Positions 593 through 18,780 of a stretch of DNA of 20,012 nucleotides are shown here, in pieces (position 1 is the stretch's first letter; every line of letters begins with the position of its first letter). The DNA is taken from the IMG/VR virus record IMGVR_UViG_3300024273_000191, positions 1-20,012 of that record. One strand, given 5' to 3'. The notes under the pieces were generated by a model. The model ran no database searches and was not told the DNA's origin. It saw only the letters and a program-made list of their open reading frames with translations. Position numbers and translations under genes: made by a program. This stretch comes from a virus.

Positions 593-1399
593 ATGATGAG
601 TTTTAAACAACATAGCCTACAAGAAACGGTAGGCGATAGAGGCTTGGTATACGAAAAGAAAGTTTTCGATGCTATGAAGTCTGCGGGCGTTGAAGGTCTA
701 GACGTAGGAGAAAAGCCAGGTGCTGGATTCTCGAATCAAGGTGCTGGCGATATCGAAGCAACATACAACGGCAAAGAGTTTAATATCGAAATCAAGCTAG
801 ATAAGAACGCCCAAATGGGAGGCACTTCTATTCGCATCGATACGATAAACAAGACACATACATTAGTCAAACCAGATGCCGTGGACGATGACGCAATTCC
901 TTTCTTTATTGAAGCAGCTAAGAAGCAAGATGAGGCTTTAAAGGACTGGGTTAACTTCGTTCGGAAACAAGAACCACTGTCATTACATGCGAAGATTCCG
1001 TATTCAATTCCCTTTGGATCGGTGACAAAAGAGGCTTGGTCAGCGGCACAAGCTGCCGGGTATCTTGGTAAGATGAACGCCATACAGTCTTTCGATTCAG
1101 CGAAAACTATCGCCAAAGCGTACAACAGAAAGAAGGTCTACTACATTCAGATAGGCAAAGCAGGTCTGTTTTATCTTGGCAGTAATCCACTCGACCTAGA
1201 CATACCGGAGTACAAAGGTTCTGTGAATATCGAATTCAGGCTTGGTCCATCGGGAAGTACACCGAGAAAAATCGAAGGCGAAAACTATCGGGTTGTCGGC
1301 GCTGGCTATCGTTGTCAAGGCAGATTGAAGACGGATATCAAGTCTAAATATAGCCTAGATAATCCAGAAGACGTAAAGAAATTATTCGGAGCTAAGTGA
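593..1399 (+). CDS. PD-(D/E)XK nuclease-like phage protein
   Basis: A 268-residue conserved T4-like phage protein. Residues 50-68 contain G-A-G-D53 followed by I-E66-I-K68 on predicted adjacent strands, the D...E-x-K signature of PD-(D/E)XK nucleases. An N-terminal helix carries a conserved-type Glu (GLVYEKKVF, about 17-25). A Q-M-G-G-T-S segment follows the E-I-K strand. The distal half (about 185-268) has a 'YYIQIGKAGLFYLG' strand and an 'R-C-Q-G-R-L-K' strand that may contact substrate. ATG codons occur at 593 and 596; AAGGA at 579-583 favours 593. The N-terminus (MSFKQHSLQE) resembles a T4 capsid-targeting peptide ending at an L-x-E prohead protease site, so it may be packaged. The TGA overlaps the next ATG by one base. 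Nuclease activity and DNA target are not shown by the sequence. Confidence 0.75.
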   Translation: MMSFKQHSLQETVGDRGLVYEKKVFDAMKSAGVEGLDVGEKPGAGFSNQGAGDIEATYNGKEFNIEIKLDKNAQMGGTSIRIDTINKTHTLVKPDAVDDDAIPFFIEAAKKQDEALKDWVNFVRKQEPLSLHAKIPYSIPFGSVTKEAWSAAQAAGYLGKMNAIQSFDSAKTIAKAYNRKKVYYIQIGKAGLFYLGSNPLDLDIPEYKGSVNIEFRLGPSGSTPRKIEGENYRVVGAGYRCQGRLKTDIKSKYSLDNPEDVKKLFGAK

Positions 1400-2628
1400 T
1401 GAAGTTTATCCAGTATCTCGCAGAATCCAAGAATACCCACATGGAACACCTTGAGGATAATATCCTTAATGCTGGTGTAGATGGTGCTAGGCAGTCTATC
1501 GACTATCTTCGTAATCTGCGTGATATGCTTGCGGGCAAGTCTGCCGGTAAAGTGAACGTCACTGTGAAATGGGACGGTGCGCCAGCCGTATTCGCCGGAA
1601 CTGATCCTTCGGATGGCAAGTTCTTTGTGGCGAAGAAAGGCATTTTTAATAAGAATGCTAAAGTATATAAGAGCAATGCAGATATTGATGCCGACATTGC
1701 TTCTGGTGATTTGAACAATAAAATGAAATTGGCACTTGCTGAGTTGCCAAAACTTGGAATTAAAGGAGTGGTACAAGGTGATTTCCTCTATTCGAAAGAA
1801 GATATCAAGACGGTTGACATTGACGGTGAACCGCATATTACTTTCCACCCTAATACGATTGTTTACGCTATACCAAAGAAAAGCAAACTTGCTAAACAAA
1901 TACTTGCCTCCAGAATCGGTGTGGTCTGGCACACAACATACCGAGGAGACAGCTTTGAATCAATGTCTGCGAGTTTTGGAAAGGAGATTGCTTCAAGTCT
2001 CGAAAAAACAAGTTCGGTCTGGTCAGTAGATGCGATGTATCGTGACTTGTCAGGAACTGCCACGTTCACTGCCGATGAGACAAAGGTTGTAACTAGTATT
2101 CTGTCGTCAGCGGGATCGAAATTCAATACGATCAATAAAGCTACTTTCCAAGGCATCACAGACAACGATGATCTTTTGGTGTTGACGAAAACGTATATCA
2201 ATACCTATGTCAGAGCAGGACAGAAGATCAAGAACACTTCCGCATTCGTAGATGGTTTGATCGGCTATATCGACGCTAAATATAAAAAAGACGAAGACAA
2301 ACTAAAGACTGAGAAGGGCAAACAAGGCGTTCAAATCAAGAAAAAGAACGTCATGAGTTACTTCGCAAACACACCTAAAGCACAGGTCGTTGCACTGTTT
2401 GATCTATACAATCTTATTGTAGATGCAAAGTTAATGATCATTCGCAAGTTAGACAAAGCAAAATCAATTGGCACATTTCTGAGAACTGCCGACGGATACA
2501 AAGTTACAGAGCAAGAGGGCTTCGTTGCTATTGATCATACTGGTAAGAATGCAATTAAACTTGTAGATCGTCTCCAGTTCTCGAATGCGAACTTCTCTCC
2601 TGATATTATAAAAGGATGGCAGAAATAA
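1399..2628 (+). CDS. Ligase-type nucleotidyltransferase homologue, conserved T4-like phage protein
   Basis: A 409-residue protein of a family widespread in cyanophage-like T4 relatives, which I believe is catalogued as DUF6267. It carries motifs in the order of covalent nucleotidyltransferases (DNA/RNA ligases, capping enzymes): K57-W-D-G60 (motif I, lysine nucleotidylation), G-D-F-L-Y near 127-131 (motif III-like), E-G-F-V-A near 373-377 (motif IV-like) and A-I-K387-L-V (motif V-like). The 240 residues between motifs III and IV are longer than usual, so a helical insertion is likely. The GTG at 1396 is also in frame, but the ATG at 1399 has GGAG at 1388-1391 with 7-base spacing and a TGATG overlap. 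The N-terminus MKFIQYLAE resembles a capsid-targeting peptide with an L-x-E cut site. Being next to a nuclease-like gene suggests a DNA or RNA end-processing pair. Ligase activity is inferred only from motifs. Confidence 0.75.
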   Translation: MKFIQYLAESKNTHMEHLEDNILNAGVDGARQSIDYLRNLRDMLAGKSAGKVNVTVKWDGAPAVFAGTDPSDGKFFVAKKGIFNKNAKVYKSNADIDADIASGDLNNKMKLALAELPKLGIKGVVQGDFLYSKEDIKTVDIDGEPHITFHPNTIVYAIPKKSKLAKQILASRIGVVWHTTYRGDSFESMSASFGKEIASSLEKTSSVWSVDAMYRDLSGTATFTADETKVVTSILSSAGSKFNTINKATFQGITDNDDLLVLTKTYINTYVRAGQKIKNTSAFVDGLIGYIDAKYKKDEDKLKTEKGKQGVQIKKKNVMSYFANTPKAQVVALFDLYNLIVDAKLMIIRKLDKAKSIGTFLRTADGYKVTEQEGFVAIDHTGKNAIKLVDRLQFSNANFSPDIIKGWQK

Positions 2629-5315
2629 TGACAAATCTACGTGACTTCTTTTCTCTTGTAGCCGAAGAAGAGAAAAAGAAAAAAATCGAACTTGAGAATA
2701 AGTTACAAAAGGCTTTGGCCGAACAAGAGGTGATTGGCACTCTTAGTAAACTTATGTCTCAATTATCCGAGAATAAGCCAGAGATTCCTCGTGACGAAAT
2801 TCTTGATGCCGAAATTGTCGGTGAACAAGTCGTCGTTTCGACCGAACAAGTCGCTAGTAAGAACTTAGTAGAAATAGTCGAAGCTAATCTTGGTCTTATT
2901 GGCGGCACTACAACAACAAAAACGTCCGATCCTCTTACACCACTCGACCAGAAATTCGTAACATTTGACGATCTTCAAAATCATTACAAAACATACATTG
3001 CAAGAATTCAACAGCAGATGTCAACAATGGGCGGTGGCGGCGAAACGAAACTGCGTTACCTAGATGATATTGATAGACCCACTATCGATAACGGCATGTA
3101 TTTACAATATAATGCAGAAACTACGAAATTCCAATTTGCGCAGGCGGCAGTGGCAGAGCTTTCTGTTGCCCGTAGCACGGACGCATTTAATCCAAATATC
3201 GTTGAAGCCGGTTTGACATCTGTAATTACTGATATGACGTTATTTCCAGGAACTGGTAGATATCTGGTAACGTACAGCAGCGAATACACGGTCGATAAGC
3301 TGCAAAGCGTAACGCAAGTTGCGGCAGATGATTTATTAGCTCTGTATAACACGCTTATGGCGCTGACACCGACTGTTACTAATCATGCTCCCACATTCGG
3401 CAACGAAACTTTAGCACCTGGAATATACACAATAGCCGGGGCGATGAATATTGTCAACACATTGACGCTTGACGCAGGCGGCAACCCTAAGGCATTATTC
3501 GTATTTCGTTGTACGGGCGCATTCACTACCGGCGCATCCTCTGTTGTTCGAATGATAAACGGCGGCACTACTACTAATGTCTGGTGGGTGTCAGAGGGCG
3601 CAGCATCTACGGGCGCACAAACTGCGATGATAGGCAGTATGCTTACAAATCAAGCGGCAGTTAGCACAGGAGCGAATACTAATATTAATGGACGTTTGCT
3701 CGCAATCAATGGTGCAGTCACTCTTGGTGATACAACTACTATGACGCAGCCAACTGGCGTCAGCAGAATTGATATTCCTGTTAACACGATTGCTTTATTT
3801 TCGTTATTTGCGGCCGTTGGAGCGATATCAAATACTGGGCCAAGTAGAATTCCACTTAGTATCGGAACTAATGCAGGTTCGATCACAGGATTTGAACCGG
3901 CTACGGTGCTTGCTCCAATATATCCAGCGGGAGTTGATGCGCTTGGCGCAATCTCTTTTGGAATTTATGTAGATGGCGAATTGATTGACGATTCTTATAG
4001 AACCTCTACTAACGAGGTTCTTGTCGCTGGGCGCACAGTATCACTACAAGCAATGATAGATGTGATTGGAGGACAAGAGGTAGATATTAGAACTACTGTG
4101 CCAATTGGAGAATATACAGTCGGACCAAGTATGTCGATGGTTCTTCTACTGACTCAAGATTCAGGCGGCTTTATCGGTGGATATGGCGGAACTAATCCAG
4201 ACGCATTTTTCAAAGACTTGGACGATGTTAATATCGGAACAATGACTCCTAGTAATGACAATTGGGTTTTGGAATACGACGCAGAGACAGAAACAGTTCA
4301 ATTCACCGAAGATGTTGGTGAAATAAGGACCATAAAATTAAATACCGCTGGTACTATCATTGCTCCTATTCCTGGAATGCTATCGTGGAACCCGCTTGAA
4401 GATTGTTTAGATATTACACAATCCGATGGTTCTACTCTACAGACCGGATTAGAATCATACGTCAGAGTACACAATGCAAGTGGCTTTGATATGCAGAATG
4501 GTGATGTTGTTAGATTTGGCGGCATACTTACTGACATTGACGGAACCCCCCTATGCGAATTGATGACCGCCGATGAGAATCAACAGCCTCTATTCTTAAT
4601 GGGGCTTCTTACTAACGATTTGCCGAATGGCGCAACTGGTAGAGCAACTGTTCTTGGAAATATTAGGTCGCTTGATACGACAGGCGCCCATGTTGGAGAA
4701 GTGTGGGAGTCTGGCGATATATTATGGGTACACCCTTCTATCTCCGGCGAAATGACAAAATATAAGCCGACGGCACCTGATCTTGCAATTTCTGTTGCGG
4801 TCGTAATGATCGTTGATTTGACATTTGGTAAATTGTTAGTTAAGCCTAATTTTGCGCCAAGACAAAGTTACGGAACGTTTCTAAACACCGGAGACCACGT
4901 AGCCGCTGACATAAACACTCCAACAAATATTCCTATTGATCTCGTAGTCAAATCTCGTGGCTTTACTTTAACTGGAACAGAAGATAGTAGAATAACAGCT
5001 ACAGTCTCTGGTCTATATAACTTTACAGTATCATATCAAATAACTTCTACCAATGCAGCGTCTAAAGATATTTACTTCTGGATGCGACGTGATGGTATAG
5101 ATTTGCCGTTCACTACTAGAAAAAAGTCTATTGTCGGCAATGGCGTATTTGATACGTTTGCATGTACTTGGTCAGTTAGTTTGCTTGCCGGACAATACGC
5201 ACAATTAATGTGGGCAGTGAGTAGCGTAAATGTAATCTTGGAAGCGGTGCCGACCTTGGCATTCGCACCATCTTCGCCAGCAGTCATTTTGACTATCACT
5301 GAGGCTGCACTCTAA
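2628..5315 (+). CDS. Modular virion fibre-like protein with inserted DUF3494 (ice-binding-like) domain
   Basis: About 895 residues. Order: a charged coiled-coil N-terminus (about 1-60) opening with MTNLRDFFSLVAE, like a capsid-targeting peptide; a short 'LDDI...YLQYNAET..FQF' linker (about 144-174); the first strands of a C1q/TNF-like jelly roll ('FPGTGRYLVTYSSEYT', about 205-222); a DUF3494 domain (about 226-376, with LAPGIYT, LTLDAGGNP, VWWVSEGAASTG, INGR and NGAVTL); the remaining jelly-roll strands ('FGIYVDGELIDDSYR' to 'GPSMSMVLL', about 377-509); a second LDDV/YDAET linker (about 530-562); a phage fibre module (about 580-745, 'YVRVHNASGF..QNGDVV'); and a C-terminal jelly roll (about 746-895). 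An alternative ATG at 2616 lacks a well-spaced ribosome site; the ATG at 2628 forms a TAATG overlap with AAAGGA 11 bases upstream. It probably binds a receptor or glycan. DUF3494 also occurs in adhesins, so ice binding is not implied. Confidence 0.75.
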   Translation: MTNLRDFFSLVAEEEKKKKIELENKLQKALAEQEVIGTLSKLMSQLSENKPEIPRDEILDAEIVGEQVVVSTEQVASKNLVEIVEANLGLIGGTTTTKTSDPLTPLDQKFVTFDDLQNHYKTYIARIQQQMSTMGGGGETKLRYLDDIDRPTIDNGMYLQYNAETTKFQFAQAAVAELSVARSTDAFNPNIVEAGLTSVITDMTLFPGTGRYLVTYSSEYTVDKLQSVTQVAADDLLALYNTLMALTPTVTNHAPTFGNETLAPGIYTIAGAMNIVNTLTLDAGGNPKALFVFRCTGAFTTGASSVVRMINGGTTTNVWWVSEGAASTGAQTAMIGSMLTNQAAVSTGANTNINGRLLAINGAVTLGDTTTMTQPTGVSRIDIPVNTIALFSLFAAVGAISNTGPSRIPLSIGTNAGSITGFEPATVLAPIYPAGVDALGAISFGIYVDGELIDDSYRTSTNEVLVAGRTVSLQAMIDVIGGQEVDIRTTVPIGEYTVGPSMSMVLLLTQDSGGFIGGYGGTNPDAFFKDLDDVNIGTMTPSNDNWVLEYDAETETVQFTEDVGEIRTIKLNTAGTIIAPIPGMLSWNPLEDCLDITQSDGSTLQTGLESYVRVHNASGFDMQNGDVVRFGGILTDIDGTPLCELMTADENQQPLFLMGLLTNDLPNGATGRATVLGNIRSLDTTGAHVGEVWESGDILWVHPSISGEMTKYKPTAPDLAISVAVVMIVDLTFGKLLVKPNFAPRQSYGTFLNTGDHVAADINTPTNIPIDLVVKSRGFTLTGTEDSRITATVSGLYNFTVSYQITSTNAASKDIYFWMRRDGIDLPFTTRKKSIVGNGVFDTFACTWSVSLLAGQYAQLMWAVSSVNVILEAVPTLAFAPSSPAVILTITEAAL

Positions 5316-5344
5316 CGCATAGCGACCTTGCAATAATGACAATA

Positions 5345-5411
5345 CTCCTTGTGTGTTTTTCGTGTTATAGTGATATAAATAAAAACGAAATCACACGACA
5401 CACACAAGGAG
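5345..5411 (+). promoter_or_regulatory. RBS-sequestering hairpin around a late promoter
   Basis: Bases 5345-5356 (CTCCTTGTGTGT) are perfectly complementary to 5400-5411 (ACACACAAGGAG), and 5360-5365 (TCGTGT) to 5393-5398 (ACACGA). This gives 18 pairs with a small internal loop. The 3' arm contains the AAGGAG ribosome site of the gene at 5418. Read-through RNA from upstream would mask the ribosome site. RNA started at the promoter in the loop would lack the 5' arm and leave it open. The pairing is seen; the switch is inferred by analogy with T4 gene e. Confidence 0.75.
5374..5381 (+). promoter_or_regulatory. T4-type late promoter (TATAAATA)
   Basis: An exact late octamer located in the loop of the hairpin spanning 5345-5411. 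The predicted start near 5387 gives a short leader ending in AAGGAG, 6 bases before the ATG at 5418. It serves the DUF1127 gene pair, which ends at the terminator at 5891. Confidence 0.75.
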
Positions 5412-5417
5412 ACTACC

Positions 5418-5660
5418 ATGTCTACACTCGCACTCGAAACTTCAAGATTTTTCTATCTTGCTATCAACAAGGCTTTGGACCTTCTACCATCATTGAAGGT
5501 TCTTGTAGCCAATATTTCAGCTAAAATCGAAGAGAACCGTATCGTCAATAGAACAATCAAAGAGCTATCCTGTCTTTCTAATAGAGAACTTGCAGACCTT
5601 GGAATTCACCGTGGTCAGATTCCATCTATCGCTCGTGAGACTGTTAAGGGAGATAATTGA
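5418..5660 (+). CDS. DUF1127 (YjiS-like) small protein
   Basis: An 80-residue protein whose C-terminal half (about 44-74) matches the DUF1127 pattern: a basic helix, then E-L-S-C-L-S-N-R-E-L-A-D-L-G-I-H-R-G-Q-I-P. The N-terminal 40 residues form a hydrophobic/amphipathic helical region (FFYLAINKALDLLPSLKVLV) that is longer than in most DUF1127 proteins and could associate with membrane. DUF1127 proteins are numerous in alphaproteobacteria, where some act as small regulators. Carriage by a T4-like phage suggests interference with a host regulator, which is inference. ATG at 5418 with AAGGAG at 5406-5411. Expression is likely late and gated by the overlapping hairpin. The next small gene starts one base after its stop. 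Confidence 0.85.
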   Translation: MSTLALETSRFFYLAINKALDLLPSLKVLVANISAKIEENRIVNRTIKELSCLSNRELADLGIHRGQIPSIARETVKGDN

Positions 5661-5661
5661 T

Positions 5662-5823
5662 ATGTGGAAACGATTCTTAGCAAAGATGGAGATAATCGGT
5701 AACGCACGGGCAACCGCAGAATTGAGACGTTTGGGCTATGATCTAAATAAAATTAGAGAGCTTGCCAAACAAACCGAAGAACGCCAGCGCAGAATTGACT
5801 CTCTTAGTCTACAATCTAAATAA
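5662..5823 (+). CDS. Small basic DUF1127-like protein
   Basis: A 53-residue protein starting MWKRFLAKMEIIG and continuing R-A-T-A-E-L-R-R-L-G-Y-D-L-N-K-I-R-E-L-A. This has the same layout as short DUF1127 proteins (basic helix, E-L-x-R-L, L-x-x-I) but lacks the R-x-L-x-D-I-G core, so it is a divergent relative at best. The ATG at 5662 has AAGGGAG at 5646-5652 and follows the upstream stop by one base, so the two are translated as a pair. An in-frame ATG at 5590 lies inside the upstream gene and has no good ribosome site. Its last ~27 codons include the first copy of a 47-base direct repeat, and its present TAA stop lies in the second copy, in another frame. The C-terminus may therefore be recent. 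Confidence 0.7.
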   Translation: MWKRFLAKMEIIGNARATAELRRLGYDLNKIRELAKQTEERQRRIDSLSLQSK

Positions 5824-5860
5824 AATTAGAGACCTTGCCAAACAAAATGAATAACGCCAG
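5741..5860 (+). repeat. 47-base imperfect direct repeat, 73-base offset
   Basis: Bases 5741-5787 and 5814-5860 both read ATCTAAATAAAATTAGAGA...CTTGCCAAACAAA...GAA.AACGCCAG. By eye, 43 of 47 positions match. The 73-base offset is not a multiple of three. In the second copy the reading used by the first copy (LNKIR-LAKQ) ends at a TAA after N-E, while the actual gene frame stops at the TAA inside 'ATCTAAATAA'. It looks like a tandem duplication, or the remnant of a duplicated gene, at the end of the small basic gene. Confidence 0.85.
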
Positions 5861-5890
5861 GTCTAATAAATAGATCAAGGACGCTAATTA

Positions 5891-5912
5891 GGACGCTTCG
5901 GCGTCCTTTTTT
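5891..5912 (+). terminator. Rho-independent terminator with UUCG tetraloop
   Basis: GGACGC (5891-5896), TTCG loop, GCGTCC (5901-5906), then six T (5907-5912). This is a classic intrinsic terminator closing the DUF1127 pair transcription unit. Confidence 0.92.
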
Positions 5913-5948
5913 GTTTTTGTAGACCATCGATTATAAGATTGACAGGAA

Positions 5949-5956
5949 CATAAATA
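5949..5956 (+). promoter_or_regulatory. Probable late promoter, one mismatch (CATAAATA)
   Basis: CATAAATA differs from TATAAATA at the first base. It lies between the terminator at 5891-5912 and the gene at 6009, which needs its own promoter. The gap also holds a TTGACA (5939-5944), but no convincing -10 at normal spacing. Confidence 0.45.
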
Positions 5957-6008
5957 ACAATTAGATGTAGTATAGACTTTGGTAAACCTACAACAGCATG
6001 AGGTTAAA

Positions 6009-18172: not shown

Positions 18173-18334
18173 ATGGAAAGATTCGAACATATTTGTGGAG
18201 TATGTGACACTGAGTTTGCGGTAGAGCTATTCGAAGAGAAGGTAGCTTTTTGCCCTTGCTGCGGCGAGCATTTGGCCATCCCAGAAGATGAGACTTGGGA
18301 AGATGATAACGATAGCGACGAAGACGACGAATGA
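18173..18334 (+). CDS. Small zinc-ribbon protein
   Basis: 53 residues, MERFEHICGVCDTEF... Two C-x2-C knuckles (C8/C11 in I-C-G-V-C, and C28/C31 in F-C-P-C-C-G; C30 gives an alternative pairing) predict one zinc ribbon, followed by a highly acidic tail (D-D-N-D-S-D-E-D-D-E). GGAG at 18159-18162 precedes the ATG at 18173. The TGA overlaps the ATG of the GIY-YIG-like gene as ATGA, so the two are translationally coupled and may act together. Zinc-ribbon mini-proteins of this kind are common in T4-like early regions. Targets are unknown; the acidic tail suggests protein binding or a DNA-mimic character rather than DNA binding. Confidence 0.75.
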   Translation: MERFEHICGVCDTEFAVELFEEKVAFCPCCGEHLAIPEDETWEDDNDSDEDDE

Positions 18335-18780
18335 TCTGGACTTTAAACGACGTAGAGTTCACCAGTGAAATGATTGAAAGCTACGTCGGGTTCATCTATT
18401 GTATCACCGACCTTAGAAATAACAAAAAATACTTAGGTAAGAAGCTGTTCGTCTCGACCAGAAGACTTGCTCCTCTCAAAGGCAAGACACGTAAGCGTGT
18501 TGTCAAGAAAGAGTCAGACTGGAAAGACTACTTCGGTTCATCGGAAGAAGTCAAACTTCTGGTAGAGGAACTTGGTCGTGACAACTTTAAGAGAGAGATA
18601 CTACATCTTTGTAACGCAAAGGGTGAAATGGGTTATCTTGAACTGTATGAACAGATGAAGCGACATGCGCTACTGTCGGACGAATATTACAACGGCATCG
18701 TACAGGCGAAGATTCACCGCACCCACGTCAAGAACCTCAAGTGGCTCATGGCCGAAGACTGGGATGCTCCTGTAAAATAG
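18331..18780 (+). CDS. GIY-YIG-like nuclease family protein
   Basis: 149 residues. G-F-I-Y-C-I-T-D (20-27) and K-Y-L-G-K-K (33-38) correspond to the GIY and YIG strands. Basic residues lie between about 44 and 61 (R-R-L-A-P-L-K-G-K-T-R-K-R). D-W-K-D-Y-F-G-S-S (63-71), F-K-R-E-I-L (88-93) and a Glu in G-Y-L-E-L-Y-E (101-107) fit the rest of the fold and its catalytic Glu. Such single-domain proteins recur in T4-like phages; some GIY-YIG proteins are homing or repair nucleases. No separate DNA-recognition domain is visible, so a homing enzyme in the Seg/I-TevI sense is not established. The start overlaps the zinc-ribbon gene by 4 bases. A repeated-type promoter starts 4 bases after its stop. 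Confidence 0.75.
   Translation: MIWTLNDVEFTSEMIESYVGFIYCITDLRNNKKYLGKKLFVSTRRLAPLKGKTRKRVVKKESDWKDYFGSSEEVKLLVEELGRDNFKREILHLCNAKGEMGYLELYEQMKRHALLSDEYYNGIVQAKIHRTHVKNLKWLMAEDWDAPVK

Follow-up and report, generated by a model that had tools for sequence, protein, structure and literature searches.

Why should a phage place a late promoter within an RNA hairpin, directly before a gene for a small protein of the DUF1127 family? The question arises from a 20,012-base record of a T4-like myophage (hereafter the window, meaning the whole stretch of DNA analyzed), whose genes include those for thymidylate synthase, DHFR, primase, NrdA and endolysin. A sequence-only reading of the window had described an interrupted stem that masks the Shine-Dalgarno sequence, with the promoter in its loop, and had likened the arrangement to T4 lysozyme gene e. 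Our analysis points to a late-only translation lock of the gene e type acting on DUF1127, a reading to which we assign a probability of about 0.85. The mechanism itself is T4's and already known; what is new is the conserved DUF1127 client.

A late promoter in the loop of a masking hairpin

The RNA from 5335 to 5430 folds with −27.1 kcal/mol, compared with −14.3 ± 2.9 kcal/mol for dinucleotide shuffles (z −4.44), and none of 200 shuffles was as good. Its main stem pairs 5345-5356 with 5400-5411 through 12 pairs, all Watson-Crick, and a second segment adds six pairs between 5360-5365 and 5393-5398. The "18-pair interrupted stem" of the sequence-only reading is thus accurate by both fold and inverted repeat, as are all other details of that observation. 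An inverted-repeat search of 5300-6000 reported this repeat as the only ungapped one. The AAGGAG at 5406-5411 lies wholly within the 3′ arm, and further out 5338-5341 and 5419-5422 pair more weakly, taking in the UG of the DUF1127 AUG. The exact late promoter box, TATAAATA, sits in the apical loop (5372-5384), as had been claimed; it occurs three times in the window against 0.88 expected. The core NATAAATA, reported to act as the late promoter in T4-like cyanophages (PMC2984593), is present in six copies, all on the gene strand; in four cases an ATG with a Shine-Dalgarno sequence follows at a distance of 39-60 nt. Neither the window nor six related loci contained an Rfam covariance-model match at the gathering score.

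Table 1. Features of the DUF1127 locus in window coordinates.
Feature	Position	Strand	Basis
DUF6267 gene, used as query for relatives	1396-2628		
Upstream fibre-like gene with ice-binding-like domain, source of would-be read-through RNA	2616-5315	+	profile searches
Hairpin 5′ arm (anti-Shine-Dalgarno CTCCTT plus extension)	5345-5365	+	fold, 5′-end series, inverted repeat
T4-type late promoter box	5374-5381	+	exact match, spacing
Likely (inferred) late-RNA start zone	5387-5392	+	about one helical turn past the box; box placement from PMC2988020
Hairpin 3′ arm, ending in the Shine-Dalgarno sequence	5393-5411	+	fold, opening cost
DUF1127 gene, 80 aa (ATG at 5418)	5418-5660	+	PF06568, E 2.8e-9; phrog_26566
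53-aa ORF just past the DUF1127 stop, probably co-transcribed, possibly coupled	5662-5823	+	sequence
Intrinsic-terminator-like hairpin that could close the DUF1127 transcript	5890-5907	+	terminator scan

Profile searches bear out both neighbouring gene identities that had been proposed. The upstream ORF is fibre-like, and the DUF1127 product matches PF06568 with 37 bits against a curated cut-off of 23.3, although the match covers residues 44-68 only. The 53-aa ORF that follows has no Pfam match; at its end lies a 73-nt tandem duplication (5710-5855, 81% identical), the second copy of which overruns the stop. Elsewhere in the window, a SegE-like GIY-YIG homing endonuclease (18331-18780) adjoins the NrdA gene. 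A DNA search among annotated phages returned no close relative.

An energetic switch between read-through and late RNA

To quantify the switch, we calculated how much free energy is needed to open the Shine-Dalgarno sequence in long and late RNAs. In read-through RNA from 5300, where the Shine-Dalgarno sequence lies in a helix, this cost is 13.0 kcal/mol. In RNA begun at the late promoter, the Shine-Dalgarno sequence is accessible at 3.8 kcal/mol wherever the 5′ end falls between 5370 and 5392, so the exact late start site is immaterial. The identical calculation on T4 gene e gives 12.7 kcal/mol for the long RNA and 3.4 kcal/mol for the late RNA, and the proposed gene e logic therefore fits quantitatively. 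A comparison of the two folded leaders, suggested by the sequence-only reading, agrees: the long RNA is stable, whereas late RNA (5387-5440) has no more structure than shuffles.

These values are consistent with the following sequence of events. RNA reading through from upstream early in infection would fold the hairpin and bury the entire Shine-Dalgarno sequence and part of the AUG, such that DUF1127 would hardly be translated in the cell. The phage late sigma factor would then start RNA from the box in the loop; given the position of the box, we infer that this RNA lacks the 5′ arm, leaving the Shine-Dalgarno sequence open. DUF1127 would consequently be made only once late transcription begins. 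Because the upstream block also contains a late box (at 554), part of the read-through RNA may be late as well, and the lock may also curb the dosage that long late RNAs supply.

The parallel with T4 gene e extends beyond energetics. There, a long-RNA hairpin likewise buries the Shine-Dalgarno sequence, TATAAATA lies in the hairpin region, and the 5′ strand is missing from late RNA (PMC3014915). The client there is a lysis enzyme rather than DUF1127, and the T4 lock is experimentally shown whereas that of the window is predicted. T4 itself hides the Shine-Dalgarno sequences of several clients (e, soc, 49 and I-TevI; PMC3014915), so the lock is not peculiar to lysozyme. Across T4 49, soc, I-TevI/II/III, segB and Aeh1 mobE, the Shine-Dalgarno sequence is hidden in upstream-initiated RNA, and several of these have the late promoter inside, as in the window, but the proteins they encode are nucleases or a capsid protein (PMC3014915, PMC2988022). 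A blind scan of 56 kb of T4 recovered I-TevII, e and 49 and missed soc. A host precedent for leader control of DUF1127 is Sinorhizobium meliloti duf1127_1, which is regulated post-transcriptionally; that host gene differs in having no phage late promoter and in relying on transcription attenuation via an upstream ORF (PMC12218461).

Recurrence before DUF1127 genes and selection on pairing

The arrangement is found throughout the family, with a strong enrichment before DUF1127 genes. We pooled DUF6267-gene relatives in IMG/VR, relatives of a DUF1127 alignment and annotated phages, yielding 78-81 distinct phage DUF1127 genes, 36 with an upstream NATAAATA box; duplicates were removed at 85%, and the sequences, which come from fragments, still share ancestry and are non-independent. 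We counted a switch where the Shine-Dalgarno sequence became more accessible by 3 kcal/mol or more in late RNA. By this measure, 25 of these 36 genes switch, compared with 8 of 120 other late-box genes on the same contigs (Mann-Whitney p 4e-10); with further contigs added, the controls reach 17 of 176 (Fisher p 3e-13). Eleven of the 36 fall below the threshold, a count in which the L036 entry is to be disregarded (its start codon was wrongly placed in a leader hairpin loop) and the L035 start is doubtful. Five of the eleven form one sub-lineage that has no lock despite its late box (L115, L117, L130, L168 and L182). Where a DUF1127 gene has no late box, it often comes immediately after the preceding gene, and such an arrangement is mostly absent. 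Sinorhizobium phage phiM12 and Methylophilales phage Melnitz encode DUF1127 with no NATAAATA box in the 140 nt upstream, which implies that they have no lock of the T4 e type. A gp55-type late sigma gene (phrog_234) is present in 10 of 15 related records; the window itself is a 20-kb fragment.

By a structural criterion that admits TAAATA variants, there are 34 locks, whose proteins form 23 clusters at 60% identity (3 at 50%). Some are very stable relative to shuffles, including L047 (z −6.6), L063 (z −5.4) and L013 (z −6.7), the last counted among the controls because its gene has no Pfam match. An AT-rich predicted lock with late box GATAAATA precedes gene phiOC_p398 of the cultured Ochrobactrum phage vB_OspM_OC (L105); its opening cost falls from 6.4 to 0.2 kcal/mol, although its overall stability is no greater than that of shuffles (z −0.5). 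For 33 of the 34 locks, a gap of 29-109 nt separates the box from the end of the closest ORF upstream, and ribosomes translating that ORF would thus rarely interfere with the 5′ arm. A fixed-letter probe of viral contigs (TCCTNATAAATA...TNAGGAG) matched 120 stretches, but a late-box DUF1127 gene occurred in none of them; the probe was not useful because the arm letters vary.

The arm sequences change together from phage to phage. Arms from the same leader pair with a mean of −9.9 kcal/mol, compared with −7.4 kcal/mol when swapped between phages (20,000 permutations, p 5e-5, z −6.7); by the same test, own arms had a weak advantage in other late genes (z −2.1). In clade A (L017, L026, L033, L067, L077, L086, L119, L139 and L136), 92% of outer-stem cells are paired, compared with 47-66% in slid controls, and 4 of 10 pairs have changed on both sides. 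For 13 leaders of clade B, differing loop lengths kept a MAFFT alignment from yielding a consensus fold, and the alignment-free arm-swap test was used instead. The compensation among relatives that the sequence-only reading had made a check of its proposal is therefore mostly found, the exception being the five-member sub-lineage, which lacks the pairing.

Several further structures were seen in the related contigs. A second conserved hairpin, AAAAGG-stem-CGGATCA, lies at L017:6645-6700 in one clade's late leader and recurs in L026, L033, L036, L067, L077, L086, L119, L136 and L139, and partly in L164 and L181; 6 of its 7 stem pairs have changed on both sides, it has no Rfam match, and it would be within the late RNA itself. 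In L050:9421-9759 and L047:8630, behind a very stable lock, DUF1127 is followed in one protein by a DUF3563-like stretch (below cut-off). A strong non-DUF1127 lock precedes an HNH/NUMOD3 homing endonuclease (L044:3637). In another strong case, an Rz-like spanin (L001:596-949, minus strand) has a late box inside a Shine-Dalgarno-masking hairpin, apparently a lysis gene locked outside T4; both are client kinds known from T4. In a small-gene family (L120:3438, L159:4131 and L183:3402), the Shine-Dalgarno sequence lies in a terminator-like hairpin that starts inside a AATAAATA box and could double as upstream terminator and lock.

Alternative readings and the DUF1127 client

Could the repeat act as DNA? 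A dimeric repressor, or the DUF1127 product, might bind both arms around the late promoter, as I-TevI represses its own late promoter via an overlapping operator (PMC2988022). The arms are indeed symmetric about the promoter, and the all-Watson-Crick stem of the window cannot alone tell RNA from DNA selection. Between phages, however, pairing is conserved and arm sequence is not, arm spacing varies widely, and the 3′ arm sits on the Shine-Dalgarno sequence. Moreover, G-T opposites occupy 11 of 31 non-Watson-Crick positions, above chance (p 0.009, in inverted repeats found without favouring G-T), which argues for selection of an RNA rather than a DNA palindrome and leaves a DNA operator improbable. 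An RNA operator is scarcely better placed: the hairpin might be bound by DUF1127 or another RNA-binding protein for autoregulation or RNA turnover rather than serve as a passive timing lock, and DUF1127 proteins such as CcaF1 do bind RNA (PMC10253847). Yet the locks share no common loop or stem sequence, and the full structure is impossible in late RNA, the main expected message, so we regard this reading, too, as unlikely, if marginally less so.

The hairpin could alternatively be a processing site or terminator of the upstream fibre mRNA that hides the Shine-Dalgarno sequence incidentally. A long RNA stem could attract RNase III, and terminator-like hairpins lie directly upstream in L105 and L111; in the latter (L111:2370-2452) the hairpin is strong and its U-tract apparently serves as the anti-Shine-Dalgarno arm of the DUF1127 gene. 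In the window, however, the stem lacks a trailing U-run, and the terminator scan called nothing at the hairpin or between it and the fibre-like ORF. Among relatives, the position of the 3′ arm follows that of the Shine-Dalgarno sequence, and we consider this explanation very improbable. The least probable reading is chance or composition, by which T-rich DNA before late promoters would pair with purine-rich Shine-Dalgarno sequences. Complements of the Shine-Dalgarno sequence are short, and control late genes do have a weak own-arm effect, but the controls (17 of 176 against 25 of 36), the failure of all 200 shuffles and 12 consecutive perfect pairs strongly disfavour it.

If the late-only translation lock holds, the choice of client calls for an explanation. 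In bacteria, the sensor kinase PhoR is a binding partner of DUF1127 proteins; cells lacking these proteins lose control of phosphate import, and shutting this import down is the role proposed for the proteins (PMC12501420). These ties to PhoR and phosphate uptake, and the RNA binding of CcaF1, are recent, and the papers found under both DUF1127 and phage make, in their titles and abstracts, no apparent link of DUF1127 to phage gene control. Speculatively, early DUF1127 could be costly because the phage needs phosphate while copying its DNA; the reason for keeping it off early is thus perhaps PhoR/phosphate control, or RNA turnover. A broader reading, which we offer tentatively and as less than probable, is that DUF1127 is the commonest late-lock client in a broad T4-like group because phage copies of a host regulator would, if made early, stop PhoR-dependent phosphate import (or change RNA turnover) and are therefore released late, with the late-leader hairpin of one clade as a second layer of control.

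In this context, the lock serves as a mark of genes that the phage cannot afford to express early. That it occurs repeatedly before DUF1127 genes suggests that these small proteins, which resemble host regulators, act during infection and that their timing is critical, and the predicted lock in the cultured phage vB_OspM_OC makes this idea testable.
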